Part shown: one piece after another, positions 1,453 to 28,965 of the stretch
Layout: each line of letters starts with the position of its first letter
Position numbering within the stretch: the stretch's first letter is position 1
Assembly: GCF_015155755.1 (NCBI RefSeq)
Contig: NZ_VWPI01000013.1
Coordinates: 1 to 32,546 of the forward strand
Reading direction: 5' to 3'
Source: Komagataeibacter sp. FXV3
Lineage (GTDB): Bacteria > Pseudomonadota > Alphaproteobacteria > Acetobacterales > Acetobacteraceae
DNA: 32,546 bases
Program-made: the position numbers and the translations under genes
Notes under the pieces: generated by a model
Told to the model about the DNA's origin: nothing
Seen by the model: only the letters and a program-made list of their open reading frames with translations
The model's database searches: none

Positions 1453-1476
1453 CGTGCGTTTTCCTTCGTTCCCCAT

Positions 1477-1568
1477 GTTTTTTAGATAAGTATATACAAA
1501 TAAGTCAAATCTGTTATCAATTCATAACAAAATGCAGGATCACCTGCCTATCAGGCATGAGAGTGAAA
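1477..1568. promoter_or_regulatory. Divergent hutI/hutF promoter region with HutC-like box
   Basis: This AT-rich stretch separates the two divergent genes. AGTATATACA at 1489-1498 matches TGTATATACA at 9 of 10 positions, with a further AA on the right arm. On the minus strand a plausible hutI promoter, TTGATA, 18 bases, TATATA, places the box over the -10 element. A separate inverted repeat, TGTTAT-N6-ATAACA, lies at 1512-1529 and could bind a second regulator. Promoter calls are by eye. Confidence 0.55.
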
Positions 1569-2939: not shown

Positions 2940-2955
2940 AAGGTTACGATCGATA

Positions 2956-3780: not shown

Positions 3781-3811
3781 CCAGCAGAATACCACGCTAA
3801 AGAGATGGCAG

Positions 3812-4834: not shown

Positions 4835-5592
4835 TGAAAAACCCCTTCTGTGTGCGCGGGCGCGCCATTGTCGTGACAGGGGGCGGTCGTGGCATTGGCC
4901 GGGCGGTGGCGCTGCATCTGGCAGGGCAGGGGGCACGGGTGTTTATCTGTGGCCGTTCTGTCGTCCCCTTGCAGGAAACCTGCGAGATGGCGCGGGGCGA
5001 TGGCCTGCACATGGACCATTTTACGGTAGATGTGGCCGATACTGATGATATCGAACGGGCTTTTCATGATCTCCACGCACAGGACATCCGGATCGATGCA
5101 TTGGTAAACAATGCCGGTATGGAAGAACTGCGTCCCGCCATTGATGCGGACGAAGCATTGTGGGGCAGGATTGTCGATACCAACCTGCGCGGGGCATTTT
5201 TCTGTGCGTTGCATGTGGCGCGCGGGATGCAGGCCGGTGGGGCGATCGTAAACCTGTGTTCACTGGCGTCTGCGGTCGGCATTCCCGGGGCCGTGCCGTA
5301 TGGTGCGTCAAAATCCGGCCTGCTGGGCGTGACGCGCGGACTGGCCACGGAATGGGGGCCAAAGGGTATCCGGGTCAATGCGGTAGGGCCGGGATATTTC
5401 CGCACGGAAATGACGGAGCCCTTTTTTCATGATGAAAAATGGCGTGAGGCGATGATGGCGCGCATTCCGCTTGGGCGGTTTGGGGAGCCTGCGGAACTGG
5501 GGGGTATCGTGCAGTTCCTGTGCTCGGACGCGGCGGCGTATGTAAACGGCCAGATCCTGTATGTGGATGGTGGTTTCCTGGCGGCCATCTGA
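4831..5592 (+). CDS. Short-chain dehydrogenase/reductase (classical SDR)
   Basis: The 253-residue protein is a classical NAD(P)-dependent SDR. The cofactor motif TGGGRGIG is at 16-23, NNAG at 93-96, and the catalytic set is Ser144, Tyr157 and Lys161 (YGASK). The C-terminal YVNGQILYVDGG segment is typical of the FabG/glucose dehydrogenase-like group. Its ATG overlaps the stop of the zinc dehydrogenase (ATGA) and a strong GGAGG sits 4-5 bases upstream, so the two are translationally coupled. It may perform a second oxidation or an epimerising redox step with that partner. Substrate is unknown; FabG-like activity in fatty acid synthesis is unlikely in this setting. Confidence 0.88.
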   Translation: MMKNPFCVRGRAIVVTGGGRGIGRAVALHLAGQGARVFICGRSVVPLQETCEMARGDGLHMDHFTVDVADTDDIERAFHDLHAQDIRIDALVNNAGMEELRPAIDADEALWGRIVDTNLRGAFFCALHVARGMQAGGAIVNLCSLASAVGIPGAVPYGASKSGLLGVTRGLATEWGPKGIRVNAVGPGYFRTEMTEPFFHDEKWREAMMARIPLGRFGEPAELGGIVQFLCSDAAAYVNGQILYVDGGFLAAI

Positions 5593-5765
5593 AGGTTGTA
5601 TATATATGTATGATATTATCGTTGCCCATTCGTTTTGGAATTGATATGAATCGGGTGAACGGGGACCAGGCAGATCTGCAGCGCGCGGCAGGGAACAGAC
5701 ATGGTTTTTTGCCCGGCTATGATTGCCGGTCGCCTATAATGCGTTGCCTGAGTGGAAGCGACCAG
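5593..5765 (+). promoter_or_regulatory. Control region before hisD-like gene, with HutC-like box and possible -10
   Basis: This 173-base gap begins with an AT run. TGTATATATA at 5597-5606 matches the HutC box TGTATATACA at 9 of 10 positions. A TATAAT sits at 5735-5740 with no good -35 at 17 bases; TTGCCC at 20 bases is weak. A short CCGGC/GCCGG hairpin lies just upstream of the -10. An own promoter for hisD-like under HutC is plausible but not proven. Confidence 0.4.
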
Positions 5766-7088
5766 ATGAACAAGACTGTCAATTTTGTCGATCTGCGGGA
5801 TGCTGAAAATATTCCCGCCCACCTTCTTGACCGTACGGAAGCCGACCTTGGTCCGTATCTGGAACGGGTCAAGCCGATTATCGAGGCCGTCCGGACCGAA
5901 GGTGACGCAGCCCTGCGCCGTTTCGCGCAGGCCTATGACGGCGTGACCATACCCGACATGAGCATCCGCGCCACGGAGGAGGAGTTTGAAACCGCCTTCC
6001 GTGAAATGGATCCCGAACTGATCCGTTCAATTGAATATGCAATTGGCAATATCCGCAAATTCCATGAGGCCCAGAAGCCCGAGGACAGCTGGATGATCGA
6101 GGTCCAGCCCGGCGTATGGGCAGGGGACCGGAATGTCGCCATTGAATCGGTGGCCTGCTACGTGCCGCGTGGCAAGGGCGCGTTTCCCAGCGTCGTGAAC
6201 ATGACCGCCATTCCGGGCATGGTGGCCGGGGTGCCGCGCCTGGTCATCATCACGCCGCCCGCGCCGGATGGGCGCGTGGATGCGGGGACACTTGTCGCCG
6301 CGCGCCTGATTGGCGTGACCGAAGTCTATAAATGTGGCGGTGCGCAGGGCGTGGCCGCCGTGGCGTATGGCACGGAAACCGTTCCGGCCTGCATGAAGAT
6401 CGTGGGGCCGGGCAGCCCGTATGTCGTTGCGGCGAAGAAACTGCTTTCCCACGTCATCGATCCCGGCGTGCCCGCAGGCCCGAGTGAGGCGATCATCCTT
6501 GCCGATGACAGCGTGGATCCCGAACTGGCGGCGCTGGACCTGATTATTGAATCCGAACATGGGCCGGATTCCTCTGCCTGGCTGGTGACGGACAGCCCGC
6601 GCGTGGCAAGGGGCGTGCAGGCGGCGCTGCCCGGTCACTGGCAGCAGATGGACGCCAAACGCGCCGAATTTTCATCCACTGTCCTGTGCGGGGCGTATGG
6701 TGGCATCGTTCTGACGCGTGATTTTGATACGGCAGTCGAATTCACCAATGCCTATGCCCCTGAACATCTGGAAATCCTGACATGCGACCCGATGGCTGAC
6801 CTTGGGCGTATCCGTAACGCGGGCGAGGTGCTGCTGGGCAACCACACACCGGTCAGCCTTGGCAATTACGTCATTGGTCCCAATGCTGTGCTGCCGACCA
6901 ACCGGGCCGCGCGCACGCATTCACCGCTTTCGGTGCATGATTACATGAAACGGATGTCGTTTGCCCGTGTCTCCGCGCGGGGTTACAGGGAAATGGCGGC
7001 CCATACGCATCGTTTTGCATCGTATGAAGGGTTTTCCGGCCATGCGCGTGCGGTGTCTTCCGCCCGCCCACTACCCAAAGGCCAGTAA
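5766..7088 (+). CDS. HisD-family dehydrogenase (histidinol dehydrogenase paralogue, altered zinc site)
   Basis: Biosynthetic HisD oxidises histidinol twice to histidine with NAD and one zinc. This 440-residue protein is clearly in the family: PAGPSE with Ser240, SEHGPDS with His265, the catalytic pair Glu333-His334 in NAYAPEHLE, Glu421 and His426. Aligned by eye to E. coli HisD, zinc ligand Gln259 is Glu262 and Asp360 is Asn367, while His262 and His419 are kept as His265 and His426. The substrate-site His367 is Ala374. It is therefore probably not the biosynthetic enzyme but a paralogue with another substrate, as known for HpsN in sulfopropanediol breakdown. GGAAG lies 7 bases before the chosen ATG. 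A kinase-fold gene follows after 29 bases, then an NCS1 permease. Oxidation of histidinol or a related amino alcohol or diol into the hut pathway is an inference. Confidence 0.85.
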   Translation: MNKTVNFVDLRDAENIPAHLLDRTEADLGPYLERVKPIIEAVRTEGDAALRRFAQAYDGVTIPDMSIRATEEEFETAFREMDPELIRSIEYAIGNIRKFHEAQKPEDSWMIEVQPGVWAGDRNVAIESVACYVPRGKGAFPSVVNMTAIPGMVAGVPRLVIITPPAPDGRVDAGTLVAARLIGVTEVYKCGGAQGVAAVAYGTETVPACMKIVGPGSPYVVAAKKLLSHVIDPGVPAGPSEAIILADDSVDPELAALDLIIESEHGPDSSAWLVTDSPRVARGVQAALPGHWQQMDAKRAEFSSTVLCGAYGGIVLTRDFDTAVEFTNAYAPEHLEILTCDPMADLGRIRNAGEVLLGNHTPVSLGNYVIGPNAVLPTNRAARTHSPLSVHDYMKRMSFARVSARGYREMAAHTHRFASYEGFSGHARAVSSARPLPKGQ

Positions 7089-7117
7089 ACCGCCGGTTGT
7101 GAACAAAGGCTGTATTC

Positions 7118-8401
7118 ATGAATGACTCAGCATCCGCACAGGCGCTACAGGCCTTTCGTGCGAAAGACGTAGCGCGGACCTGCATCATCCTTTCCGACCT
7201 GATACGGGAGGAATTCGGTCTGCAGGTCAGCAATATTACGCTGGGAAATGATGGATACAGCCTGAATTCCGTAAACGGCTTCCTGACCACCCCGACGGGG
7301 GAGGAATATTTCTTCAAATTCCATCATGAGGAAAATGAAGAAAGTACCCTTCAGGAATTCTATCGTGGCGAGGTCCTGCGCGACGCTGGCTACCCGATCG
7401 ACATGCCGGTTTATGTGTCGCGTGCTATCGGCCGGCAGATACTGCTTTATACTAGGCGATCAACGCCACGGCTGGCTGATCTGTGCCGTACATATGACAG
7501 GACGGATGCGGATATCGGACCGGTCGTTGCGGCACAGCGCGAACTTGACGCGCTGACGGCGCGCATTTACCGCGAAACCTTTCACCCGATATCCGAAGCC
7601 GAATGCGCAGCCGAGCCCTTTCATCAGCTATTCCACCATCGGCTGACAACCGATGACCGGCAGCTTGGGGCGCGGGCGGCGCGTTTTTTCGCATCGGGAC
7701 GTACATTTGCGTTTCCGGGCGTAAGTATTGTCGATCACGCGTTGCTGGACATGAAGTGGCGCATCAACGGGGTGATGCATGCCGATACGCTGCGTACTGT
7801 ACTGGAACGCAGCATGCGACTGCTGTCCCCACGCATGCTGGCCCATTCTGGCGGGGTTACGGCGCACGGGGACGCGCATAACGCCAATGTATGGTGGGAA
7901 GGGGCGGGCAGGAGCCTGACCTTCTTTGACCCCGCCTTTGCCGGACAGAATATTCCGGCCATCATGGCGGAGGTCAAGGCGACCTTCCATAACATCTTCG
8001 CCCATGCAGACTGGCTGTATCATCCCCATGACCTGCCTGCTGATATGGCGACCCATGCCAACGTGACGCCCGACGGAATACTGGATGTCACGCTGGGGTG
8101 GGAGATGAATGACCTGCGGCGCGCCTTTCGGGATTCCAAGGCGGTGCTGCTGTGGCGTCCGCTGCTGGAGCATATGCGTGCCACGGGGCATCTGCCTGCC
8201 GAATGGCGCGCGACGATCCGGTGTGGCCTGTTCTGCTGTCCGACGCTGGTAATGGATTTGTGCGCCGATGGGGCTGGTGGCCATACGCCGCTTTCATCCC
8301 TGACGGGGCTGGCGGTTGCTGTCATGTGCGGCAGCGAACCCGTGCCACCAGGGCAGGATGTGGTCAGCCGCTTTCTTGATGCAATTGATCCCGGAAATTA
8401 G
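7118..8401 (+). CDS. Aminoglycoside phosphotransferase-fold (APH-like) small-molecule kinase
   Basis: The 427-residue protein carries the hallmark HGDAHNANVWW at 250-260 (catalytic Asp252, with Asn257) and a FFDPAFAG metal motif with Asp271 in place of the usual D-x-D. A candidate ATP lysine is Lys67 in EEYFFKF. This matches the APH/choline kinase fold. Here it is more likely a metabolic kinase than a resistance gene, because it sits between a HisD-like dehydrogenase and an NCS1 permease in one direction. Phosphorylating the imported substrate or an alcohol intermediate is an inference; no close characterised relative is recognised. Confidence 0.72.
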   Translation: MNDSASAQALQAFRAKDVARTCIILSDLIREEFGLQVSNITLGNDGYSLNSVNGFLTTPTGEEYFFKFHHEENEESTLQEFYRGEVLRDAGYPIDMPVYVSRAIGRQILLYTRRSTPRLADLCRTYDRTDADIGPVVAAQRELDALTARIYRETFHPISEAECAAEPFHQLFHHRLTTDDRQLGARAARFFASGRTFAFPGVSIVDHALLDMKWRINGVMHADTLRTVLERSMRLLSPRMLAHSGGVTAHGDAHNANVWWEGAGRSLTFFDPAFAGQNIPAIMAEVKATFHNIFAHADWLYHPHDLPADMATHANVTPDGILDVTLGWEMNDLRRAFRDSKAVLLWRPLLEHMRATGHLPAEWRATIRCGLFCCPTLVMDLCADGAGGHTPLSSLTGLAVAVMCGSEPVPPGQDVVSRFLDAIDPGN

Positions 8402-8425: not shown

Positions 8426-8446
8426 ATAACAGTGATCCCCTGTTAT
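8426..8446. promoter_or_regulatory. Inverted repeat before NCS1 permease gene
   Basis: ATAACAG-N7-CTGTTAT is a perfect 7-base inverted repeat ending one base before the GAAGGAG ribosome binding site. It could be an operator or a small hairpin affecting translation. Just upstream, TTCCGGAA at 8410-8417 is a further palindrome. Confidence 0.4.
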
Positions 8447-8463
8447 TGAAGGAGTTGCCGTAT

Positions 8464-9864
8464 ATGGACATTGACGCACCATTGCGCAATTCGGTTCTGG
8501 CCGTTGAGGAAGATACGATTTTCCCCATACCGGCAGACCGGCGCAGGGGAAACACGCGTGGGCTGTGTCTGGTCTGGCTGGGGGCAAACCAGAACATACT
8601 CGCGATCCTGACGGGCATGATCTACTGCCAGGTCTGTCACCTTTCGCTGTTCTGGGCGGCGCTTGCCATTCTGGCCGGCAACGGGGTGGGGGGCATGTTC
8701 ATGGCCCTGCATGCCGCCCAGGGGCCGCATCTGGGCATTCCGCAGATGCAGCAGACACGTGGTCAGTTCGGGGCCTATGGTGCGCTACTGGTCATTGCTG
8801 TCGTCATTGTCATGTATGTGGGGTTCACCGCGACATTGCTGGCCATCGGACGTGAACAGGTGCAGCAGGCCCTGGGGGGGGCGCCACATCAGTTACCCGT
8901 CTATGTGCTGGCCGCGGCCATCCTGTCGCTGTGTATTGTCGGGCATGGGTGGATTGAACGTTTTGTGGTCGGGTTTACCTATGTGGCGGCCACGGCGTTC
9001 TTTGCCCTTGCGGCCTTCTTCCTGTTTTACCTGCATGCCCTGCCGGTCCAGCCGTTGATGGCGATCCCCAGCATGCATGATTTTGTGGCGGCCGTCTCGA
9101 TCGGGGTGCTGTGGCAGGTGGCGTATGCCCCTTATGTGTCGGATTATTCGCGTTACCTGCCCGCCGATACACCCGAACGCGATGCATTCTGGTCATGCAT
9201 GACGGGCAGCATCATTGGAACCGCAGTCCCCACCTTTCTGGGGGCCTATATGGGCAGTACCGCATGGGCGGGGAATTTCTATGCCGCGATCCATGCGCAT
9301 TATACGCTGCCGACTTATGTCCTGCTTGGCATTGTCCTGATTTCGATTGCGGTTTCATGCACGATGCAGATCTATTGCGCAGCCCTGTCCTGCATGACCC
9401 TGTTTTATACCATGTGGCCGACATGGCGCCCCACGGCGCGCAGTCGCGGATTGCTGGCGGGTGGCCTGCTGCTGCTGTCCGTACTGCTGACGATTATGCT
9501 GAGTGGCGACATACTGCATATTCTCAACAGTTTCATTGAATTCCTGCTGGCGGTGCTGTCCCCGTGGACGGCAATCAATCTGGTCGATTATTACCTGATC
9601 CGGCATGGCGATTATGATATCCGGTCCTTTTTCCGTCATGATGGCGGCATATACGGACGTTTCAACCGCCCTGCCATTTTCTGTTACATCATGGGTATTG
9701 TCGTGCAGGTACCCTTTATTTCAAATGAACTGTATTCCGGCCTGATGGCGCGGCAGATGGATGGGGTTGACCTGTCATGGGTGGTGGGAATCCTGCTGCC
9801 CGGCCTGGTTTACTGGCTGATATGCCGGCAGGCAGATTCCCCCGCACGCCCTGCCGTCAGATAA
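8464..9864 (+). CDS. NCS1-family permease (cytosine/purine/allantoin type), copy 1
   Basis: This 466-residue, strongly hydrophobic protein has about 12 predicted membrane segments. It carries NCS1 signature stretches: FMALHAAQGPHLGIPQM, QTRGQFG, VLWQVAYAPYVSDYSRYLP and SPWTAINLVDYYLIRHG. NCS1 carriers import cytosine, purines, allantoin, hydantoins and, in some hut clusters, probably urocanate, with protons or sodium. The ATG at 8464 is chosen because GAAGGAG lies 9 bases upstream; a TTG at 8446 is less likely. It is the last gene of the plus-strand run from hisD-like, and its stop overlaps the end of the convergent amidohydrolase gene by 8 bases. A diverged paralogue is at 21972-23372. Substrate is probably a small N-heterocycle. 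Confidence 0.9.
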   Translation: MDIDAPLRNSVLAVEEDTIFPIPADRRRGNTRGLCLVWLGANQNILAILTGMIYCQVCHLSLFWAALAILAGNGVGGMFMALHAAQGPHLGIPQMQQTRGQFGAYGALLVIAVVIVMYVGFTATLLAIGREQVQQALGGAPHQLPVYVLAAAILSLCIVGHGWIERFVVGFTYVAATAFFALAAFFLFYLHALPVQPLMAIPSMHDFVAAVSIGVLWQVAYAPYVSDYSRYLPADTPERDAFWSCMTGSIIGTAVPTFLGAYMGSTAWAGNFYAAIHAHYTLPTYVLLGIVLISIAVSCTMQIYCAALSCMTLFYTMWPTWRPTARSRGLLAGGLLLLSVLLTIMLSGDILHILNSFIEFLLAVLSPWTAINLVDYYLIRHGDYDIRSFFRHDGGIYGRFNRPAIFCYIMGIVVQVPFISNELYSGLMARQMDGVDLSWVVGILLPGLVYWLICRQADSPARPAVR

Positions 9865-11476
9865 GGTCGTGGACGATACGGCCTGCCGTGACCGTCAGCA
9901 TGCATTTCAGGTCCGGCAGGCTGTCCGGATCCGTCATGAAGGGATTGCCCGACAGGACGGCGATATCCGCGCGGTAGCCCAGGGCAATACGGCCTTCATA
10001 CCGTTCCCGTCCGGCGGCCACCGCGGCCTTGCTGGTATAGCTGTCGAATGCTTCGGGAAAGCGGATCGCCTGTGTCGGGATCCATGCTTCCGATGCAGGC
10101 GCCCCGATGGGACGGCGCAGGACGGCCTTGCGCAATCCACGCAGGGGATCAAGGGATACAATCGGCCAGTCCGTCCCGAACGCCAGCGTGCTGCCCGCAT
10201 CCAGCAGCGAGCGCATTGGAAACGCCAGTTGCGCGCGATTGTCCCCCACGCGTTTTTTCCAGACTCCTTCCATGCCCATCCACTCATCCGCAGGCGCGAT
10301 CATGACGGGTTGCATGCTGGCGATGGTGGATGTGTGGGCAAAACGGGCAATATCATCGGGATAGGGCAGTTCGGCATGTTCCACCCGGATCCGTGGACGC
10401 TCCGGGCTGTTGCCTGCGTTTTCCGCCGCGTCCAGCGCCAGACGGATGGCGCCCGGCCCGATGGCGTGGGTCCATATGTCCAGACCGTTTTCCACGCCGG
10501 CACGGACCGCATCAATATAGGCCCTGCGGTCCCATAACAGGGTGCCGCGTGCATCAGGCTGGTCCGCATAGCCTTCGGGCATGTAGCCGGTATGGGATTC
10601 CAGCACGCCGTCAAGGAAGAACTTGATGCCATCCAGGCGAACCATCGCATTGTCATAGCGTGCGCGCAGGTCAAGCGCTTCGCGCAGGCGCTGTGGCGTC
10701 AGGCCGGGATCGGGTTCTATTTCCGTCATCATCCCGATACGGACCGGCAGCGTGCCCGCCGCATCCCGTGCCGACAGCAGCGGCAGGTAGGCTTCGTCAT
10801 ATGCGGCGCTCTGCATGCGGGTGATGCCCAGCCGGGATGCCGTATCCAGCACCAGACCCAGCGCGTGATCCATTTCCGGCCCGGTCATGGGCGGGATATG
10901 GCTGGTGACAAGGCTGACGGCGTCTTCCTTCAGCCAGCCCGATGGCGTGCCATCGGCGCGGCGCACGATCTCGCCATTTTCCGGGTCGGGGGTATCGGGG
11001 GTAATTCCGGCAATTTCCATGGCGCGCGAATTCGCCCATGCCGCATGTGCCATGCCCGATGTCAGGATTACCGGGCGGTCTGGCAGGATGCTGTCAATCA
11101 TGCGCGCATCGAATTCGCCATCTGGCAGGTCGGGGTAGCCATAGCTCCATTCCAGACCGCGGATCCATGGCGCGTCGGGATGTGCGGCCGCCCATTGCGC
11201 GACCCGTTCCAGCAGGGCCTTCATTGTCCGCACATCCCGCAGCCCGATGGCGGAAAGATAGTCCGCGGCCATGGCGATATGCATGTGGGCATCAATAAAG
11301 CCCGGCATCAGGAACATGCCGCCCAGATCACGGATGACGGTTGTCGGGACACATTGCGCCATGATGTCGAATGATGTGCCGATCGCCACGATATGTCCGT
11401 CCATGATGCCGACTGCATTGACGGGTGGGGCATGGCCGTGAATGTCAGCATTGATGATGGCAAGGTCGAGGGGCAT
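9857..11476 (-). CDS. YtcJ-like metal-dependent amidohydrolase (Amidohydro_3)
   Basis: This 539-residue protein resembles the YtcJ/Amidohydro_3 branch: PGFIDAHMH (His64, His66), RGLEWSYG, the KFFLDGVLESHTG segment, WTHAIG, VEHAEL and a late GTDWPI aspartate. These enzymes hydrolyse amide or amidine bonds, often in cyclic or N-acyl substrates; specificity cannot be predicted. The ATG at 11476 has AGGA about 9 bases upstream, and a longer frame to 11584 lacks homology-like sequence. It is divergent from the M20 hydrolase gene across a 352-base control region. The surrounding oxygenase and RidA genes suggest ring or amide hydrolysis in the same pathway. Confidence 0.85.
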   Translation of the reverse strand: MPLDLAIINADIHGHAPPVNAVGIMDGHIVAIGTSFDIMAQCVPTTVIRDLGGMFLMPGFIDAHMHIAMAADYLSAIGLRDVRTMKALLERVAQWAAAHPDAPWIRGLEWSYGYPDLPDGEFDARMIDSILPDRPVILTSGMAHAAWANSRAMEIAGITPDTPDPENGEIVRRADGTPSGWLKEDAVSLVTSHIPPMTGPEMDHALGLVLDTASRLGITRMQSAAYDEAYLPLLSARDAAGTLPVRIGMMTEIEPDPGLTPQRLREALDLRARYDNAMVRLDGIKFFLDGVLESHTGYMPEGYADQPDARGTLLWDRRAYIDAVRAGVENGLDIWTHAIGPGAIRLALDAAENAGNSPERPRIRVEHAELPYPDDIARFAHTSTIASMQPVMIAPADEWMGMEGVWKKRVGDNRAQLAFPMRSLLDAGSTLAFGTDWPIVSLDPLRGLRKAVLRRPIGAPASEAWIPTQAIRFPEAFDSYTSKAAVAAGRERYEGRIALGYRADIAVLSGNPFMTDPDSLPDLKCMLTVTAGRIVHDLI

Positions 11477-11828
11477 GGATCTGTTCCTGAGATGGCAATA
11501 TGGTGTGATTAGAACATATTGTTTCTTGAATGTAAGGGTATGCCAGCGGCCGCTGCGACACGTCGGTTCACGAACGGACGGCAAAGGGAAAGCCGGGTCT
11601 TCGGGCCGGATGATTCAGTGAATGGTATATTGTTTTCAATCGGTTGTCGGTAATGGTCCCGCTGGTTCGGGAATGATGCGGGCAGGGGAAGGGTGCCATC
11701 GCCAGACCAGTTGCCTTACATGGATGCAGCGCATCGGAAGTTTCTTCCTTTGGCATAGAAACTTCCGAGCAGGCGATGCCCCCGGACTGCCTTACGATAG
11801 GGCGGATGGCCCTGATGATGGAGCGAAC
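11477..11828. promoter_or_regulatory. 352-base divergent control region, no gene seen
   Basis: No convincing coding region is present. The stretch next to the amidohydrolase start (11500-11540) is AT-rich and probably holds its promoter. The part before the M20 gene contains a strong inverted repeat at 11735-11767, listed separately. Confidence 0.5.
11735..11767. repeat. Perfect 11-base inverted repeat before the M20 hydrolase
   Basis: CGGAAGTTTCT at 11735-11745 is repeated in inverse at 11757-11767 with an 11-base loop. Flanking GCATCG (11731-11736) and CGATGC (11774-11779) are also complementary but out of register. There is no T-run after it, so an operator for the nearby LysR protein or an RNA hairpin in the 5' leader is more likely than a terminator. 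Confidence 0.55.
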
Positions 11829-12992
11829 ATGACGTCCCTGCTGCATGACAGTAACCCGACCGTTGCAGCCCTTGCGCATCTGGTTGCGTGGCCGACCCTG
11901 AGCAGGGAAAGCAATCTCGGCCTGATCGAATGGTATGCGCAGCAGTTACGCGCGGTGCATGCCACGGCTACGATCGTGCGGCATGAGGAGACGGATCGTT
12001 ATGGTCTGTTTGCCACGATCGGACCAGATACCGGACAGGGCATCGTGCTGTCAGGCCACAGTGATGTCGTGCCGGTGCTGGGGCAGGGATGGACATGCGA
12101 CCCGTTCAACCTGACGGACCGTGATGGAAAGCTGTTCGCGCGCGGCAGCAGCGACATGAAGGGCTTTCTGGCCTGTATGCTGACGGCGGCACGATACGCG
12201 GCGGGTCGGACATTGCGGTATCCCGTGCATTTCGCCATTTCCTGTGACGAGGAAATCGGCTGCGTGGGCGTGCGTTCCCTTCTGGCGTTCCTGCGTGAAC
12301 GTGGGATCATGGCACAGGGCTGTATCGTGGGGGAGCCAACCGGGCTGCAGGTTGCCGTGGCGCATAAGGGAAAAGTGGCCGCGCGCATTGTATGCCACGG
12401 CCGCGCGGCACATTCCGCCAATCCCATGCTGGGGTGCAACGCCATCCAGATCGCGGCCCGCATGACACAGGAAGTCGCCCGCATCCAGGCGGAAATGATG
12501 GATGCCCCGATACAGGACCCGTCATTCGACGTGCCATTCAACACGGCGCAGGTCGGGCTTATAAACGGCGGGGTCGCGCTGAATATCGTCCCTGACCGGT
12601 GCGAAATCCAGTTCGAGATGCGCCTGCTGCCCGGACAGTCGGCGGATACATGGCTGGAGCGGTTGCGCGAACGCGCAGTGGGTGTGGCAGCCGATTATCC
12701 CGGTGGGGCAATCGACTTCGAAATCATCAATGAATATCCGGGCCTTGTGCCCGAACCTGATACCGCCATCCGCAATATCGCCCTGCAGGCCAGCCAGCAT
12801 AATGCGGTGACCACCATCGGGTTCGGGACGGAAGCGGGACTGTTCCAGCAGGAACTGACCCTGCCCACCGTAATATGCGGCCCCGGATCAATCGATCGTG
12901 CCCATAAGGCGGATGAATACATTACCCGCGACGAACTGGCCGCCGGTGACGCCTTCCTTGCCCGTATTGTTGATACATTGTGCGTGGCGTAA
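11829..12992 (+). CDS. M20-family amidohydrolase, ArgE-like (acetylornithine deacetylase type)
   Basis: The 387-residue protein is a di-zinc M20/ArgE hydrolase: LSGHSDVVPV (His77, Asp79), ARGSSDMKGF (bridging Asp109), DEEIG (Glu141 as general base, Glu142 as ligand), GEPTG and a C-terminal PGSIDRAHKADEY histidine motif. ArgE proper removes acetyl from N-acetylornithine, but many catabolic relatives cleave N-formyl, N-acetyl or N-carbamoyl amino acids. GGAG lies 5-6 bases before the ATG. The gene ends 11 bases from the convergent LysR gene. In this neighbourhood of ring-cleavage-like genes a deacylase for an open-chain intermediate is more likely than arginine synthesis (inference). Confidence 0.88.
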   Translation: MTSLLHDSNPTVAALAHLVAWPTLSRESNLGLIEWYAQQLRAVHATATIVRHEETDRYGLFATIGPDTGQGIVLSGHSDVVPVLGQGWTCDPFNLTDRDGKLFARGSSDMKGFLACMLTAARYAAGRTLRYPVHFAISCDEEIGCVGVRSLLAFLRERGIMAQGCIVGEPTGLQVAVAHKGKVAARIVCHGRAAHSANPMLGCNAIQIAARMTQEVARIQAEMMDAPIQDPSFDVPFNTAQVGLINGGVALNIVPDRCEIQFEMRLLPGQSADTWLERLRERAVGVAADYPGGAIDFEIINEYPGLVPEPDTAIRNIALQASQHNAVTTIGFGTEAGLFQQELTLPTVICGPGSIDRAHKADEYITRDELAAGDAFLARIVDTLCVA

Positions 12993-13003
12993 GGCCGTCG
13001 GCC

Positions 13004-13921
13004 CTAGTCGCTGCCCGGAAGCGGCTTTCCCGCAAGCAGTTCACGGCATACCTGCAGGAAGGCCGTCGCCCGCGCCGTCTGCCGTATGTTTGCGATCGTG
13101 GCCGTGCCGTACAGCAGCGGCTGGGGTGTGTCCTTGAGCGCAAGATAGGCCAGCGGCCTGCCATCCAGCGCCGCCTTGTTGCGGGGACGTGCATTGGCCA
13201 GGCTGTAGCCTTCGCCACGCGCGACCAGCGAACGGATGACATCAATGCTCTGGAACCGTCCCATTATGCTGGGCACGATGCCCGCATGGGAAAACAGGGA
13301 CAGGAAATAATCCCGTGACAGCGGCAGGTCCAGCAACAGGAAGGGTTCATGTTCCAGTTCAGACAGGGCGACATGCCGCCTGCGGGCCAGACGGTGCTGC
13401 GCCGATACAAAGACAAAGGGAGGCAGGGCGGCCAGCGGGAAAAAATCCAGATCCTGCGGCATGTTCAGGTCATAGGCCAGCATGGCGCAGATTTCACCAT
13501 TGCGCAGCTTTTCAATCAGTTCACTGTGATGGCCGGCGATAATGCGCAGCTGGGCATCGGGGTGGCGGGTTTCGAATTCCTGCAGCAGTTCCGGCACGAT
13601 CAGGGAATACAGCGTTGTCATGCATCCGACTTCAATCATGCCGCTGACCTGCCCCGACAGGCCAGACGCCGTCATGTCCAGTTCCGTGGCATGAAGCAGC
13701 AGGTTACGCGATTCACGCAGGAAGCTATGGCCTTCCTGTGTCAGGGACAGTCCGGCGGCATGATGGCGGATGAACAGGGTAATCCCGAACACGGCCTCAA
13801 GCTGGGCGATGGCGGCGGAAATGGATGGCTGGGAGATATGAACCCGCCTGGATGCTGCAGTAATCGACCCCGTTTCGGCAGCCGCGACAAAATATTCGAT
13901 CTGTTTCAGTGTGAAACGCAT
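13004..13921 (-). CDS. LysR-type transcriptional regulator
   Basis: The 305-residue protein has the LysR layout. An N-terminal winged helix-turn-helix (RFTLKQIEYFVAAAETGSIT, then ASRRVHISQPSISAAI) is followed by a linker helix and a periplasmic-binding-like effector domain. Length is normal. It is divergent from the DUF1028 gene across 104 bases, the classical arrangement in which a LysR protein controls itself and the operon facing away from it. It probably activates the DUF1028 gene and perhaps the flavin reductase-HpaB-RidA genes in response to a pathway intermediate. Effector is unknown. Confidence 0.93.
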   Translation of the reverse strand: MRFTLKQIEYFVAAAETGSITAASRRVHISQPSISAAIAQLEAVFGITLFIRHHAAGLSLTQEGHSFLRESRNLLLHATELDMTASGLSGQVSGMIEVGCMTTLYSLIVPELLQEFETRHPDAQLRIIAGHHSELIEKLRNGEICAMLAYDLNMPQDLDFFPLAALPPFVFVSAQHRLARRRHVALSELEHEPFLLLDLPLSRDYFLSLFSHAGIVPSIMGRFQSIDVIRSLVARGEGYSLANARPRNKAALDGRPLAYLALKDTPQPLLYGTATIANIRQTARATAFLQVCRELLAGKPLPGSD

Positions 13922-14025
13922 GGGGTGGCTCCGGCTGCTGTGTCTGTCACGACGGGATCAGGGACCGCATGGCGGCAGGTGGCGCCGGATCGGATGAAAC
14001 AGGATAAAAAAGGAAAGGCAGGATC

Positions 14026-14703
14026 ATGACATTTTCCATCGTCGCGCATTGCGCGCGTACCGGGCAGTTCGGGGTGGCGGTCGTATCGTCGTCGCCCGCC
14101 GTGGCGGCCCGCTGCGCCTATGCCCGCGCGGGCGTGGGGGCGGTCACGTCGCAGAATGTAACCGACCCGCGACTGGGGCCAATGGCCCTCGACCTGTTGG
14201 AACGTGGACTGACACCCGCTGAATGCCAGGTTGTCATGGCCCGCGTCGCAACCCATGCGCAATACCGGCAGATGACCTTTATCGACGGCAGCGGCCATGG
14301 GGCCGCGTGGTCGGGCTCCGGCACGCTGGGCACCCACGCCGAGGCCTTTGGCAAGGATGTCGTGTCCGCTGGCAACCTTCTGGCCAATGCGGATGTGCCG
14401 GCCGCAATTGTCGCCGCGTTTGAAAAGGGTGATCCGTCCCTCGAACTGGGGGAGCGGATATTGCTGGCCCTGCAGGCTGGCGCTGATGCGGGTGGCGAAG
14501 CCGGACCTGTCTATTCCGCTGGCATGCTGGTGGTTGACCGTGAACAGTGGCCGCTTGCGGACCTGCGGGTGGACTGGGGTGAAAATCCGGTCGCGCGCCT
14601 GATGGAACTGTGGGCGGTATGGAAACCCCAGATGTATGATTATGTCCAGCGTGCGCTGCATCCCGCCCAGGCCCCTTCATATGGTGTGCCGGGAGATGAG
14701 TAG
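14026..14703 (+). CDS. DUF1028 family protein (putative Ntn-hydrolase-fold)
   Basis: The 225-residue protein starts TFSIVAHCARTGQFGVAV and continues with ARAGVGAVTSQN and LGPMALDLLERGLTPAE, the recognisable DUF1028 pattern. From memory the family is placed in the N-terminal nucleophile hydrolase clan; if so Thr2, exposed after Met removal, could be the nucleophile (inference). AGGAAAGGCAGGATC before the ATG provides a good ribosome binding site. It is the first gene downstream of the divergent LysR promoter and lies 137 bases before the flavin reductase. An amidase-like role on an opened ring product would fit, but no function is established. Confidence 0.85.
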   Translation: MTFSIVAHCARTGQFGVAVVSSSPAVAARCAYARAGVGAVTSQNVTDPRLGPMALDLLERGLTPAECQVVMARVATHAQYRQMTFIDGSGHGAAWSGSGTLGTHAEAFGKDVVSAGNLLANADVPAAIVAAFEKGDPSLELGERILLALQAGADAGGEAGPVYSAGMLVVDREQWPLADLRVDWGENPVARLMELWAVWKPQMYDYVQRALHPAQAPSYGVPGDE

Positions 14704-14840
14704 AGCATTGCAATAACCTTTGATCAATCATTATTGCTTCGGTTTTCCTGAGGTCGATCTTCGATATATATTTCTTTATCGGAATGATGTTCCGTTCGAA
14801 TATCCCATGGTCATAAGCACTGGTTTTCGGGAGGCATGCC
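14704..14840 (+). promoter_or_regulatory. Likely promoter/operator region of the flavin reductase-HpaB-RidA operon
   Basis: This AT-rich gap contains GCAATAA at 14710-14716 and its inverse TTATTGC at 14731-14737 (14-base loop), and a second palindrome CGGAA-N5-TTCCG at 14780-14794. A clear GGGAGG ribosome binding site precedes the ATG at 14841. The repeats could be regulator sites; no clear -35/-10 pair was fixed. Confidence 0.4.
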
Positions 14841-15377
14841 ATGTCCACCCAGGCATCGGTATCACAGCATGGGCAGGGATCATCCGAACGTGACCTGTTT
14901 GTCGCGGCCATGGGGCATGTTGCTGCCCCCGTGGCCGTGATCACCACGGATGGCCCCGCCGGACGGTTCGGCATTACCGTCAGTTCCGTGACATCCGCAT
15001 CCGCCGACCCGCCAATGATGATGGCGTGCATCAACCGGCGCAGCCCGGCTTTTGCGGCCATTATCGAAAACGGCTGCTTCGTCATCAACATGCTGTCGCA
15101 CGACCATGTGGGGGTTGCGGAAAATTTCGCGGGCCGGGCAGGGGCTTTTCCGGCATTCGATTTCGGCTGCGCGGCATGGAAGCCGGGGCAGGCGGGGGGA
15201 TGGCTGCTGGACGGGGCGCTGGCGTCCTTTGACTGCACCCTTGAACAATCCGTCGATGTCGGGACGCACGGGGTGATTATTGGTTGCGTCCGGCACACCT
15301 GTCTGCGGCCCACGATGACGTTGCTGCATTTCCGCCGGGCGTTTCATCGGCCGGAACCCGTTCTTCATAATTCTTGA
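14841..15377 (+). CDS. Flavin reductase-like protein (HpaC/RutF family)
   Basis: The 178-residue protein matches the flavin reductase-like FMN-binding split-barrel family. AAPVAVITTDGPAGRFGITVSSVTSAS binds the flavin phosphate region, PPMMMACINRRSPAF and NGCFVINMLSHDH follow, and a late GTHGVIIGCV motif is present. Such proteins use NAD(P)H to reduce FMN or FAD and hand it by diffusion to a partner oxygenase. The partner is evidently the HpaB-like protein 15 bases downstream. Length is normal. The last part lacks the usual GG-x-Y-ending motif and ends in RRAFHRPEP, which looks diverged. Confidence 0.88.
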   Translation: MSTQASVSQHGQGSSERDLFVAAMGHVAAPVAVITTDGPAGRFGITVSSVTSASADPPMMMACINRRSPAFAAIIENGCFVINMLSHDHVGVAENFAGRAGAFPAFDFGCAAWKPGQAGGWLLDGALASFDCTLEQSVDVGTHGVIIGCVRHTCLRPTMTLLHFRRAFHRPEPVLHNS

Positions 15378-15392
15378 GCAGGAATATAATTC

Positions 15393-16862
15393 ATGATCCG
15401 TACAGGACAGCAGTATCTGGACTCCATCCGTGATGGCAGGCGGATATGGATGAACGGCGAACGGGTGAAGGATGTCACGACGCATCCGATGTTCAGGCCC
15501 ATCGTGTCCATCCGTGCGCGGATGTACGACATGCAGCATGAAGCGGCTTTCCGTGACCGGCTTGTCTATACGGATGACAAGGGTGATGAATCCCCGCTGG
15601 CCCTGCAGTTGCCCCACTCGCAGGAAGACTGGAAGGCAAAGCGTATCGCGACCGACACCGTGCTGGATGAAGTGGGGGGCATCGTTACGCGTGTCGGTGA
15701 CGAGACGATTGGCGAGATGTGGTCACTGTATGACGGTCAGGACATCCTGAACGAGGTCAATCCCCAGTTCGCTGAAAATATCCGCCATCACGTTCACAAG
15801 GCGATGTATGCGGACCCGTTTCATGTCTCGGCCAACACGGACCCCAAGGGGGACCGTTCCAAGCGGCCGCAGGATCAGGACCCGGACATGCTGCTGCATG
15901 TCGTGCGTGAAACGGATGCGGGCATCATTGTCCGTGGCGCCAAATACGAAACGGCGGCGGCTTACGCCAACCAGGCCTTTACCAAGCCCACCATTGCCAA
16001 CTGGGGTGATGCCGAACTGTCTGATTACGCAGTCGGGTTCATCTGTGACTTTTCCTCACCCAACCTGAAATTCATCTGTCGCACCGGGTTTGCCGGTCGC
16101 GCCCCGATCGAGGATTATCCACTGTCCAACAGATATGACGAGGTCGAAGCCCTTGTCATTTTCGATGACGTGCTGATCCCATGGGAAAACGTACTTTTCT
16201 ACCGGCATACCAAGGCCGCGACCTTCATCCGTGCGACGTTGCATCGCTACAGTGCCTTCGCCTTCGTGCAGCGTAACCAGAAACTGGCCGACATGATGAT
16301 CGGCGCCGCCCTGTTCAACGTGCGCCAGACCGGACTGGACCGCCAGCAGGCGGTGCAGGAGAAGCTGGCGACCCTTGCCTGCTACCGTGAAGGGATCAAT
16401 GCCCACCTGACGGCGTCCATCGCCATGGCGGAAGAAAGCCCTGGTGGCCTGCTCATGCCCAACCAGTCGCTGCTTATGGCCGGGCGTGTGCTTGCGTGTT
16501 CCAAGCTGCATGAAATGATGCACCTGACGCGCGAACTGTGTGGTGGACAGATCTGTGTCACGCCGGACGTGGCGACATTCCGGGATCCCGAAACCGCGCC
16601 ATGGATGGAAAAATTCTATTCCATCAATGAAACATGGCAGGCCGAGGACCGGCGCAAGCTGCTGGCCTATGCCCGTGACATGCTCAATTCCGATTATGCC
16701 GGCCATCGTCTGACATTCCAGCTGTTTGCGCAGGCCCCGCCATTTGCGCATCTGGCTGCGGTCTATCGTAACTTTGACTGGAACGGCGCACTGGAATTCG
16801 TGCAGCGTTCAGCCGGGCTGAGCGAAGGTGTGCTGCAGCAGGGCAAGGGAGGGAACAAATAA
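15393..16862 (+). CDS. HpaB-family FADH2-dependent monooxygenase
   Basis: This 489-residue protein is a group D flavoprotein monooxygenase related to 4-hydroxyphenylacetate 3-monooxygenase HpaB. It shows the N-terminal TGQQYLDSIRDGR motif, a middle domain with YADPFHVSANTDPKGDRS and SDYAVGFICD, FDDVLIPWENVLFYR, and the helical C-terminal domain with LTRELCGGQICVTPD. The family adds oxygen to aromatic rings or N-heterocycles using reduced FAD. It pairs with the flavin reductase upstream and its stop overlaps the RidA start (TAATG). No HpaDEFG-type ring-cleavage genes are present nearby, so classic hydroxyphenylacetate breakdown is not supported. The context of NCS1 carriers, hydrolases and RidA suggests a nitrogen heterocycle (inference). 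Confidence 0.9.
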   Translation: MIRTGQQYLDSIRDGRRIWMNGERVKDVTTHPMFRPIVSIRARMYDMQHEAAFRDRLVYTDDKGDESPLALQLPHSQEDWKAKRIATDTVLDEVGGIVTRVGDETIGEMWSLYDGQDILNEVNPQFAENIRHHVHKAMYADPFHVSANTDPKGDRSKRPQDQDPDMLLHVVRETDAGIIVRGAKYETAAAYANQAFTKPTIANWGDAELSDYAVGFICDFSSPNLKFICRTGFAGRAPIEDYPLSNRYDEVEALVIFDDVLIPWENVLFYRHTKAATFIRATLHRYSAFAFVQRNQKLADMMIGAALFNVRQTGLDRQQAVQEKLATLACYREGINAHLTASIAMAEESPGGLLMPNQSLLMAGRVLACSKLHEMMHLTRELCGGQICVTPDVATFRDPETAPWMEKFYSINETWQAEDRRKLLAYARDMLNSDYAGHRLTFQLFAQAPPFAHLAAVYRNFDWNGALEFVQRSAGLSEGVLQQGKGGNK

Positions 16863-17281
16863 TGACAGGCCAGGTAACACATAAGCGGATCCGCTGTTTC
16901 AACACGCGTGATACCTATCCCGAACAGAACCTGGATAATGACCTGTGTCAGGCTGTCGTCGCGGGCCAGACGGTTTATGTGCGCGGCCAGGTGCCGCAGG
17001 ATCTCGATACGCGTGAAAATGTTGCGGTTGGCGATCCGGTGGGCCAGGCTGAAAAGGTAATGGATAATATCGAACTGCTGCTGAAGGAAGCCGGTTCCGA
17101 ACTGTCCCATATCTGCAAGGTTACGGTGTACCTGACCGATATCCGTTACCGGGAAGCGACATATCGTGTTCTGGGGCGGCGTATGAAGGGGGTCTTCCCC
17201 GTTTTCACGGGGCTGGTTGTCGTGGCGCTGGCCCGCCCGGAATGGCTGATCGAGGTGGATGTTATCGCTGTCATTCCATAA
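16862..17281 (+). CDS. RidA family (YjgF/YER057c/UK114) protein
   Basis: The 139-residue protein has the RidA pattern: FNTRDTYPEQN, VYVRGQVPQD, GQAEKVMDNIELLLKEAG, HICKVTVYLTDIR and FPVFTGLVVVALARPEWLIEVDVIAV. The usual catalytic arginine around residue 105 is not evident, since the canonical GxRP/xxR motif reads ALARPEWLIE with Arg shifted, so the activity may differ from imine deamination. RidA proteins hydrolyse reactive enamine/imine intermediates; RutC of the pyrimidine pathway is a family member acting beside an oxygenase and reductase. The start overlaps the HpaB-like stop by one base, indicating translational coupling. A hairpin terminator follows. Confidence 0.9.
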   Translation: MTGQVTHKRIRCFNTRDTYPEQNLDNDLCQAVVAGQTVYVRGQVPQDLDTRENVAVGDPVGQAEKVMDNIELLLKEAGSELSHICKVTVYLTDIRYREATYRVLGRRMKGVFPVFTGLVVVALARPEWLIEVDVIAVIP

Positions 17282-17629: not shown

Positions 17630-19993
17630 ATGCGCAGACGTTCGACTGGCTTGACTGTATGTATGATACTGTCATCAACATTCCTGACTAATGGACTGCG
17701 TCTGCACATGGCCCATGCGGCCGATGTCGTGCAAAAAAATCCTGTCAATGCAAAGGCGACGACTGCATCCGGTGGCGCGACGACGGCTGCCAGGGCGGGG
17801 GGCACGACAGTCAATACGGGCATCAATGCCACCGGGGCGGGTGAGCAGCTGCGTGTCACGCGCACGCGTTCGTATGGGGGCCTGATCCGTAACGAAACGG
17901 CGGCGAAATCGGTCAGTACCGTGTCCCATGATTATATTGCCAAGCAGGCGCCCGCGTCCAACCCGCTGGCGCTGGTGGCCATGTCACCGGGTGCGAACGT
18001 GTCCATGGGCGACCCGTTTGGTGTCAGTGATGAATCCGATATCAATGTCCGCGGCCTGAACCAGCAGGAAATTGGCTTCACCTTCGAAGGGGCGCCAATG
18101 AACGATCCGGATGACTATACCCCCAATTCGTCCGAATGGGTGGATAGCGAGAACATGGATAACGTCCAGCTGCAGCAGGGCGCCCCCAGCATCGAAACCC
18201 CCACCACCACGTCATCTGGCGGCACCATGGCCGTCAAGATGCGCGGACCCAAGCATACCCGTGGCGGCGAATTCGATGTCAGTTACGGCACGCACCAGAT
18301 GAACCGCCAGTTCATCCGGTATGACAGTGGGGATATCGCCAATACCGGTCTGCGGGCATTTGCGTCCTTTTCCGACCTGACCAGTCGCGCCTGGCGTGGT
18401 CCCGGGCGGAACAACCGCTGGCATGTGGACTACAAGCTGATCAAGGAATGGGGTGACGGAAATTACATTTCCCTGTCCGGTTCCTACAACAATGAACATA
18501 CGGCGTGGTACAGCACCCCGACCCTGAGCGACTGGAATAAATACGGGCTGAAGAACAACCCTGATGACATGCAGGGAAAATATACCTTTGGCAGTCCAAA
18601 TTATTACAAATCCTATGCCACCAGCTGGACCGACTATTTCCTGAGCGCACCGTCACATTTCAAGCTGGCGCGTAACCTGACACTGGATGTAACACCTTAT
18701 TATTACCATGGCAGCGGGAACTATCCCTTTGGCGTGACAACCGTTTCGACAACCGGGCCGTATTATAACGGAACGATGCCCAATTCTTCACCGCTTGCAG
18801 GGAACAATTATTCGGAAGATGGTCAGACCGCGGCAATCCAGAACTGGATTGGCGTGGAAGGCTATACAGGATTCAACTCCACCCTGCATTACAAGGTGGC
18901 CAACCATGACCTCGTCTTCGGGTACTGGTATGGCTATACCGACATGCATGTTGATGAACCGCTTAGCGGGCTGGATGCGTCCGGCAATTCAACGGGCTAC
19001 CTGCGGCAGCAGGATGGCACCACGCTGAATGAATGGTCCTATCACACCATTACCCAGACGAATGCGCTGTATATTGGCGATACCATGCATTTCCTGAACA
19101 GGAAGCTGACACTGGATGTTGGCTTCAAGGAAGTCATGGCGGCACGAAATGGCACGCTAAACCAGCCTGGTCCCCAGTACAACGCCAATTATTATTCGGC
19201 ACAGCCGCTGCCGCGCATGTCCATCAGCTACAAGTTCAACCCGAATATCATGGTATTCGGCAACGTGACGACCAGTTATCGCCTGCCATTGGGTTCCGCT
19301 TTCTACAACCAGTATGACAGTCCGTGGGATGGCGGTATGTATCAGACCGCGAACAAGAAACTGCATGATGAATACAGTGTGTCGGAAGAAGTGGGTGCAC
19401 GGTACCATGACAAGTGGATCACGGCATCGCTGACCCTGTTCAATTACAACTTCTCGCATCACCAGATTAACGAATACATCGGTAACGTGCCGTATTATCA
19501 GGATGCGGGCAGCATGACGACGCGCGGTTTCGATGGTGAACTGGCGCTGCATCCATGGCATCACATCACGCCTTACGGGTCGGTTGAATATCTGTATGCC
19601 CGTCAGGACTCCAACATTACAATGGATGGCGTGACCTATCACACGGCAGGCAAGATGGCGACTTCCGCGCCACGCTGGATGGCGGCAGCCGGCCTGCAAT
19701 ATGATGATGGTCGTTTCTTTGGCAGTGTATCGCTGAAATATGTGGACAAGGAATACGGCACGTTCATGAACGATGAACAGATTTCCGGTCACAAGCAGGT
19801 GGACATGATGATCGGTGCCCGCGCGCCGGATATCGGCTTCCTCAAGGCGCCTTCACTGCGTCTGAACGTCATAAACCTGGCGGATCATCACTACCTGTCC
19901 GGGGTGTATAATACCGGGCCGGTTGCGGGCACCGCGCAGTACTACACGGCGCCGAACTTCGCGTGCCTGGGAACATTCAGCACGGGCTTCTGA
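17630..19993 (+). CDS. TonB-dependent outer membrane receptor
   Basis: The 787-residue protein starts with an RRR-containing signal peptide probably cleaved after AHA near residue 30. A plug domain follows (SVSTVSHDYIAKQ, NPLALVAMSPGANVSMGDPFG, INVRGLNQQEIGFTFEGAPMND), then a long aromatic-rich 22-strand-type barrel ending in phenylalanine (LGTFSTGF). Such receptors import scarce or large solutes, classically iron chelates but also other nutrients. The middle region is rich in tyrosine, asparagine and tryptophan, as expected for strands. The HutC-like box upstream suggests uptake of histidine-related or imidazole compounds, or of a histidine-metal complex. No TonB box could be fixed. AAGGGGG precedes the ATG. 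Confidence 0.92.
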   Translation: MRRRSTGLTVCMILSSTFLTNGLRLHMAHAADVVQKNPVNAKATTASGGATTAARAGGTTVNTGINATGAGEQLRVTRTRSYGGLIRNETAAKSVSTVSHDYIAKQAPASNPLALVAMSPGANVSMGDPFGVSDESDINVRGLNQQEIGFTFEGAPMNDPDDYTPNSSEWVDSENMDNVQLQQGAPSIETPTTTSSGGTMAVKMRGPKHTRGGEFDVSYGTHQMNRQFIRYDSGDIANTGLRAFASFSDLTSRAWRGPGRNNRWHVDYKLIKEWGDGNYISLSGSYNNEHTAWYSTPTLSDWNKYGLKNNPDDMQGKYTFGSPNYYKSYATSWTDYFLSAPSHFKLARNLTLDVTPYYYHGSGNYPFGVTTVSTTGPYYNGTMPNSSPLAGNNYSEDGQTAAIQNWIGVEGYTGFNSTLHYKVANHDLVFGYWYGYTDMHVDEPLSGLDASGNSTGYLRQQDGTTLNEWSYHTITQTNALYIGDTMHFLNRKLTLDVGFKEVMAARNGTLNQPGPQYNANYYSAQPLPRMSISYKFNPNIMVFGNVTTSYRLPLGSAFYNQYDSPWDGGMYQTANKKLHDEYSVSEEVGARYHDKWITASLTLFNYNFSHHQINEYIGNVPYYQDAGSMTTRGFDGELALHPWHHITPYGSVEYLYARQDSNITMDGVTYHTAGKMATSAPRWMAAAGLQYDDGRFFGSVSLKYVDKEYGTFMNDEQISGHKQVDMMIGARAPDIGFLKAPSLRLNVINLADHHYLSGVYNTGPVAGTAQYYTAPNFACLGTFSTGF

Positions 19994-23656: not shown

Positions 23657-25354
<1,698 letters not shown>

Positions 25355-28146: not shown

Positions 28147-28155
28147 CAATTTCCC

Positions 28156-28881: not shown

Positions 28882-28965
28882 ATTACAGCACTCAATTCAT
28901 GGTCTATGGCAGCCTGCGGGGCGCCGGATGGAAAAGAAATGATCAGGCATCATTTAAACATAGTC

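Follow-up and report, generated by a model that had tools for sequence, protein, structure and literature searches.

A gene module in Komagataeibacter sp. FXV3 is probably the imidazole-4-acetate branch of the histamine (hin) pathway, with the ring oxygenase HinF displaced by an unrelated two-component enzyme of the HpaB family. The module lies on one whole contig of 32,546 nucleotides (nt; NZ_VWPI01000013.1, hereafter the window) from a 3.6-Mb genome and comprises an operon (positions 14026 to 17281), an M20 hydrolase gene, and a LysR regulator gene, surrounded by a hut-type histidine/imidazole island. The imidazole-4-acetate pathway is known; the exchange of its ring oxygenase is new, and no description of an HpaB-type or two-component imidazole-acetate oxygenase was found in the literature searched (open-licence papers only). 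An earlier, sequence-only reading had placed an HpaB-family oxygenase, a flavin reductase, and a Rid protein beside DUF1028, M20, YtcJ, and LysR genes, with an NCS1 permease next door. All are where it put them, and two NCS1 permease genes flank the module. Its proposal of an imidazole-type substrate is judged likely, given the match to the hin gene set; by the same match, the substrate is probably not the unknown that the reading took it for.

Gene set and residue changes

In Pseudomonas, according to the parts of two studies drawn on here (PMC8231116, PMC6467879), histamine is converted to imidazole-4-acetate by HinCD, to aspartate by HinFLHG, and to fumarate by the aspartase HinI. HinF is described there as a flavin adenine dinucleotide (FAD) monooxygenase (EC 1.14.13.5), HinL as an enamine deaminase, HinH and HinG as amidases, and HinK as a LysR regulator responsive to imidazole-4-acetate. 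The gene order FAD monooxygenase-Rid-DUF1028-M20 is annotated on plasmids of Caballeronia NK8, Ideonella dechloratans, Pantoea At-9b, and Klebsiella variicola. In the order of Halotalea (Pseudomonadales in GTDB), DUF1028 was found in 38 of 381 genomes and the HpaB type in 3 of 390. DUF1028 regions were read in 20 of the 38, and 12 of these have a protein of 418 to 467 amino acids (aa) followed by Rid, DUF1028, and M20. The first-position protein of one region (L136; 442 aa) is a Pyr_redox_3-type FAD/NAD(P) oxidoreductase, not an HpaB, and has relatives in 14 of the 20 regions, including all 12 with the ordered set. Gene order and EC class suggest that this protein is HinF; gene order and the named activities likewise suggest that HinL, HinH, and HinG are of the Rid, DUF1028, and M20 families. 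A first idea, that the HpaB-like gene is HinF itself, was dropped because the unrelated 442-aa enzyme occupies that place in these operons.

The window has Rid, DUF1028, M20, and LysR genes in common with the hin pathway, its downstream enzymes being 41 to 83% identical to those of HinF-type operons. The Rid protein is 83% identical to that of Acetobacter pomorum and 64 to 65% identical to the Rids of two other HinF-type operons, and the M20 protein is 41 to 56% identical to argE-named genes in three. It differs in having a flavin reductase and an HpaB-family protein instead of a single FAD monooxygenase, and in its setting, a hut island with GMC, NCS1, and TonB-receptor genes. No HinF-type oxygenase is present in the window, and the sole match reported from its own genome (L155; G000:C147:37805-39010) is 37% identical to the L136 type. 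A HinI-like aspartase (57% match) is encoded in the genome at G000:C131:10935, unlinked to the window. The DUF1028, flavin reductase, HpaB-like, and Rid genes are codirectional, with gaps of 137 and 15 nt and then an overlap, the Rid start overlapping the HpaB stop (16862); the LysR gene is divergent from DUF1028. The HpaB-like protein is 99 to 100% identical to its counterpart in Komagataeibacter europaeus LMG 18890.

Against two HpaB equivalog models, the HpaB-like protein scored 233.7 (cut-off, 480.2) and 170.7 (cut-off, 885.2) bits, in keeping with the earlier view that it is not a 4-hydroxyphenylacetate hydroxylase. The flavin reductase scored 116.5 bits against RutF (cut-off, 254.75) and 111.7 bits against HpaC (cut-off, 205.95), and is therefore neither. 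In the parts of PMC10537072 and PMC10816480 used here, Arg100, Tyr104, and His142 of Thermus thermophilus and Escherichia coli HpaB (T. thermophilus numbering) hold and deprotonate the phenol. Eighty-six members of the HpaB-like clade were aligned with six references, four of them HpaB-annotated: Arg100 is retained in 86/86, position 104 is Glu in 86/86, and the His142 position is Ser (Ser146) in 86/86, the four HpaB-annotated references having Tyr and His. The window enzyme thus has the family, two-component logic, and Arg100 of HpaBC, with Glu and Ser for Tyr104 and His142. A reference of the CoA-dehydratase type has neither pair. A tree made with a quick method sets the 86 members apart from the references, the grouping test that the earlier reading had proposed; because of long branches to the references, it was used for group separation alone. 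These substitutions would fit a loss of phenol chemistry and, taken alone, are no proof of an imidazole substrate. The Glu/Ser pair also occurs in a 38% relative labelled TftD on the Paracoccaceae plasmid pLA6_003 (L162; 4330 to 7693), which is perhaps a sister enzyme with a different substrate. Around it are a reductase gene, a carboxypeptidase G2-like gene, and polyamine-type ABC genes.

In the window Rid, Phe occupies the position of the RidA catalytic Arg105, and Arg is found there in 0 of 98 Rids aligned. Imine hydrolysis by RidA depends on that Arg, about 10% of RidA proteins carry Ser instead, and Arg-less Rid subfamilies are termed mysterious, as set out in the portion of PMC4433059 used here. 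The DUF1028 proteins have Thr2 in 97 of 97 sequences aligned, and the structure model of the window protein matches HslV and 20S proteasome chains, several of which pair model residue 2 with their own residue 1. With an N-terminal nucleophile (Ntn) and the fold of Ntn-hydrolases, the protein is predicted to be a Thr Ntn-hydrolase.

Recurrence and exchange of the oxygenase

The HpaB-like protein has 216 relatives in one scan of species genomes, of which the best 80 (69 to 100% identity) were used for locus counts; neighbor identity limits (e.g., reductase, at least 36%; LysR, at least 34%; M20, at least 40%; GMC, at least 50%) and adjacency distances were our choice. By record titles, the 80 loci span Alpha-, Beta-, and Gammaproteobacteria, Actinobacteria, and Thermomicrobiales. 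Neighbors include Rid (64/80), DUF1028 (60/80), LysR (59/80), flavin reductase (52/80), aldehyde dehydrogenase (ALDH; 12/80), aspartase (8/80), and GMC (3/80, two of the three in Komagataeibacter). Rid lies directly 3′ of HpaB in 61/80, and in 35/80 the four genes for flavin reductase, HpaB, Rid, and DUF1028 adjoin one another. The recurrence elsewhere that the earlier reading called for is thus found, and the association of the gene set is beyond chance. An aspartase gene also lies beside the HpaB set in Aminobacter. Among plasmid records (best 25 of 271), the top 15 HpaB matches are 54 to 80% identical, the next 38%, and the remainder about 31% and lower; this drop from 54 to 38% gives the HpaB-like group an edge. 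One locus (L103; HpaB, 62%), considered as a Pseudomonas hin locus, was rejected, having HpaB and a reductase with no Rid or M20 in the stretch and DUF1028 just outside it.

On Bacillus badius plasmid pPM400 (L099; 8402 to 19440), flavin reductase, HpaB-like (54%), FAD synthetase, Rid, and DUF1028 genes form one run, which continues with an amino acid permease, a class II histone deacetylase, a cytosine permease, an aminotransferase, and ALDH. This looks like a complete set for histamine, perhaps acetylhistamine, in a Gram-positive bacterium.

The oxygenase is exchanged within otherwise matching gene orders. In Caballeronia NK8 (L156), the order is ABC transporter, Rieske, LysR, HinF-Rid-DUF1028-ArgE; ten Burkholderiaceae HpaB loci (L022 to L028, L030, L032, and L033) have the same order, with reductase and HpaB at the HinF position between LysR and Rid. 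When three of them (L023, L028, and L030) were compared with NK8, transporter, Rieske, and LysR were 74 to 85% identical, against 64 to 66% for Rid, 49 to 51% for DUF1028, and 49 to 50% for ArgE in two (ArgE was not found in L023), so the genes beyond the swap have diverged more. By these identities, the exchanged segment may extend from the oxygenase as far as DUF1028, Rid and DUF1028 having been brought along.

A plasmid cluster of Acetobacter pomorum holds DUF1028, the HinF type, ALDH, Rid, NCS1, GMC, ArgE, and LysR, at 55 to 83% identity to the window genes. Three further genomes (G745, G770, and G620) have HisD, NCS1, Rid, TonB-receptor, GMC, M20, and DUF1028 genes as in the window, but with HinF. 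An APH-like gene is present in G745 and G770, and G745 adds an alcohol dehydrogenase (ADH), a short-chain dehydrogenase/reductase (SDR), a flavin mononucleotide (FMN) dehydrogenase, YtcJ, a second NCS1, and ALDH. No hut genes were found in the stretches of these three; in G780, hut genes, NCS1, Rid, DUF1028, M20, and HinF occur together.

Across 397 Acetobacteraceae genomes, 42 have the HpaB type (E value of 1e-120 or better; about half at 70% identity or more), and 39 have the HinF type (34 at 56% or more, 5 at 48 to 50%). Two of those five were looked at (L185 and L186): neither has Rid or DUF1028 nearby, and they may not be HinF. Both types together occur in one genome (G406; 7% contamination), and five genera (g1, g19, g43, g54, and g68) have both types in different species, the only HpaB-type genome of g19 (G410) being a fragment without DUF1028. 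DUF1028 is present in 41/42 HpaB-type and 39/39 HinF-type genomes; in the window's genus, it is present in 6 of 14 genomes, which are exactly the four with HpaB and the two with HinF (Fisher P = 3.3e-4).

Proposed route and competing explanations

From the gene content, its recurrence, the exchange, and the residue changes, we infer the following route. The flavin reductase would make FADH2, and the HpaB-like enzyme would form C4a-hydroperoxyflavin (Arg100 being retained) and hydroxylate the imidazole ring of imidazole-4-acetate, with Glu104 and Ser146 in place of the phenol-binding Tyr and His. The product of this hydroxylation, an imidazolone acetate, would yield N-formylaspartate through opening and deimination, carried out by the Rid protein and the DUF1028 Thr Ntn-hydrolase; from this the M20 enzyme would take off formate to give aspartate, and the aspartase encoded elsewhere in the genome would convert aspartate to fumarate. 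The GMC, NCS1, and TonB-receptor genes would deliver imidazole alcohols or imidazole acetate. The hut route parallels this chemistry in its imidazolone, formimino, and formyl intermediates; its genes lie in the same island, and HutI, HutF, and HutG belong to Pfam families other than those of Rid, DUF1028, and M20.

Several findings weigh against this interpretation. The assignment of HinF to the Pyr_redox_3 type draws on gene order and EC class, not on the sequence of HinF of Pseudomonas putida U. For the aminotransferase and ALDH of hin-type clusters, the window's own genome offers nothing closer than 35% and 40% matches, respectively. Among the 80 loci, 11 have neither Rid nor DUF1028 in the stretch read (some contigs being short), 28 have no recognized reductase, and just 19 have M20 (at least 40%). 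About half of the 42 Acetobacteraceae HpaB matches are just 60 to 66% identical; the sole such locus whose surroundings were read (L188; 63%) has no Rid or DUF1028 near. DUF1028 is not specific, since it is present in 230 of the 397 genomes, and it was dropped as a pathway marker, even though it still tracks the oxygenases in the window's genus. Avoidance between HpaB and HinF is weak over all 397 genomes (P = 0.062) and stronger within the 230 with DUF1028 (P = 0.0025), values computed over related, not independent, species. The HinF type also occurs in 5 of 86 HpaB loci (L049, L069, L074, and L080 among the 80, plus the plasmid locus L100). In L080 (10001 to 13000) and L100 (7493 to 10533), the two oxygenase genes are neighbors in the same direction, an arrangement as compatible with two steps or two substrates as with redundancy.

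These five loci also speak for an unlikely alternative, in which the HpaB-like enzyme acts on a relative of imidazole-4-acetate, e.g., an N-methylated one, and feeds the same Rid, DUF1028, and M20 enzymes, HinF taking the unmethylated acid. A Rieske gene with distant similarity to glycine betaine monooxygenase (17/80 loci) and an old-yellow-enzyme-like gene in L100 recall enzymes of N-demethylation. However, a Rieske gene also lies beside the HinF-type operon of Caballeronia NK8, none was found among the window proteins scanned, and the 42 HpaB-type and 39 HinF-type Acetobacteraceae genomes overlap in one only.

That the genes form a Rut-like module acting on another nitrogen heterocycle, the overall description given by the sequence-only reading, is improbable. 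The E. coli Rut pathway has analogous parts (oxygenase, flavin reductase, Rid, hydrolase, and permease), RutA being of an oxygenase family different from HpaB. No RutA-type domain was found in the 28 window proteins scanned for domains, the RutF and RutC cut-offs were missed by over half (Rid scored 33.1 bits against a RutC cut-off of 169.1), and the Arg needed for imine hydrolysis is missing from the Rid. The gene set corresponds to that of hin and lies within a hut island. What stands of that description is an enzyme that does not score as HpaB proper, in a recurrent gene set, with an imidazole as the likely substrate; the Rut-like module of unknown substrate does not.

More improbable still is an oxygenase whose substrate, in place of imidazole-4-acetate, is another acid derived from histidine, upstream or parallel (imidazole lactate, propionate, or urocanate): the hut island does hold 2-hydroxyacid oxidoreductases and a HisC-like aminotransferase, but aspartase, aminotransferase, and ALDH neighbors elsewhere indicate a C2 side chain ending at aspartate, and the C3 acid is already served by HutI, HutF, and HutG. 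A phenol or 4-hydroxyphenylacetate hydroxylase, as family membership and the labels of relatives in public records would have it, is hardly credible given the missed equivalog cut-offs, the replaced Tyr104 and His142, the separate tree branch, and the lack, as the earlier reading had remarked, of hpa ring-cleavage genes among the window proteins scanned, which Deinococcus hpaB has alongside.

Returning to the imidazole-4-acetate branch with an exchanged oxygenase, we offer a broader proposal, as a whole less likely than not: that an as yet undescribed two-component HpaB-type imidazole-ring hydroxylase repeatedly displaced HinF (in Proteobacteria, Actinobacteria, and at least one Bacillus plasmid), that the Arg-less Rid and the DUF1028 Thr Ntn-hydrolase do ring opening and deimination, and that acetic acid bacteria use the island to drain yeast-derived imidazole ethanol, imidazole lactate, and histidinol to aspartate and glutamate. 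If true, many proteins labelled 4-hydroxyphenylacetate hydroxylase (the 216 relatives of one scan) could be imidazole oxygenases, the capacity to break down imidazole acetate or histamine would be expected more widely among bacteria than a HinF search reveals, and an unrelated enzyme would clearly have assumed one step while its neighbors stayed. The Arg-less Rid and DUF1028, both poorly understood, would be tied to one defined, assayable chemical sequence, with relevance to histamine removal in fermented foods.

The surrounding island

Table 1. Features of the window, with proposed roles and supporting matches
Feature	Position	Strand	Support or remark
HutI	217-1476	-	Above NCBIfam equivalog cut-off
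HutF	1557-2939	+	Above NCBIfam equivalog cut-off
HutG	2842-3780	+	Above NCBIfam equivalog cut-off; true start probably later
ADH	3572-4834		With SDR and HisD, would oxidize an imidazole alcohol (e.g., histidinol)
SDR	4831-5592		As for ADH
HisD-family dehydrogenase	5520-7088	+	TIGR00069, 446.7 bits (cut-off, 243.8)
APH-like phosphotransferase	7118-8401	+	Weak Pfam match; 53-58% relatives in same place in G745 and G770
Second NCS1 permease	8446-9864	+	55-57% relatives beside HinF-type module in G745, G770, and G620
YtcJ-type amidohydrolase (Amidohydro_3)	9857-11584	-	Domain match; 54% relative in G745, same island
M20 hydrolase, acetylornithine-deacetylase type (HinG-like), proposed N-formylaspartate deformylase	11829-12992 (frame opens at 11622)	+	PRK07522, 446.7 bits (cut-off, 412)
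LysR regulator, presumed HinK-like role	13004-13921	-	Pfam
DUF1028 protein (HinH-like), predicted Thr Ntn-hydrolase	14026-14703	+	Pfam, 208 bits
Flavin reductase (Flavin_Reduct), proposed FADH2 supplier	14841-15377	+	Pfam, 122.7 bits
HpaB-family oxygenase, proposed two-component imidazole-4-acetate monooxygenase	15393-16862	+	Pfam HpaB_N/HpaB
Rid-family protein (HinL-like), without RidA catalytic Arg	16862-17281	+	Pfam
TonB-dependent receptor, proposed outer-membrane uptake	17630-19993	+	63-67% relatives between Rid and GMC in G745, G770, and G620
GMC alcohol oxidase/dehydrogenase (choline-dehydrogenase type), proposed source of imidazole acetaldehyde/acetate from alcohol	20320-21936	+	
NCS1 permease, proposed imidazole(acetate) importer	21972-23372	-	55% and 47% to NCS1 genes of two HinF-type clusters
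HutU	23657-25354	+	Above NCBIfam cut-off
HutH	25359-26906	+	Above NCBIfam cut-off
FMN 2-hydroxyacid dehydrogenase	27004-28146	+	
GntR/UTRA regulator	28156-28881	-	HutC type by domains
HutD	28966-29523	-	
GlcD-like FAD oxidase	29520-31124	-	
HisC-like aminotransferase	30904-32133	-	541.2 bits, just above histidinol-phosphate transaminase cut-off (540)

The M20 start is likelier near 11829 than at 11622 because the profile match begins at residue 79 (ATG positions were also considered). Elsewhere in the Acetobacteraceae, DUF1028 is often multicopy (up to six per genome), and the family probably has roles outside the imidazole-4-acetate pathway too.

The FMN and GlcD-like 2-hydroxyacid oxidoreductases and the HisC-like aminotransferase (27004 to 32133) adjoin the hut genes, and a route from D- or L-imidazole lactate through imidazole pyruvate to histidine is possible with these enzymes. 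At the other end, the ADH-SDR-HisD-APH block (3572 to 8401) with its NCS1 permease is possibly for catabolism of an imidazole alcohol or diol; the order is whole in G745 (L191 and L182) and partial in G770 (L194) and G620 (L196). Among Protein Data Bank relatives of the HisD-like protein, sulfopropanediol dehydrogenases rank below histidinol dehydrogenases.

The GMC protein has a 66% relative in the Acetobacter pomorum hin plasmid cluster and a 58% relative beside that of Klebsiella variicola, and GMC genes also lie beside hin genes in Hansschlegelia (L019), G068 (L149), and others, which points to an alcohol, imidazole ethanol for example, as a possible source. Rieske genes of the glycine betaine monooxygenase-like type noted above were seen in the ten Burkholderiaceae loci, L078, and L156, most with polyamine-type ABC transporters; beside the module, they possibly serve N-demethylation of methylated imidazoles.

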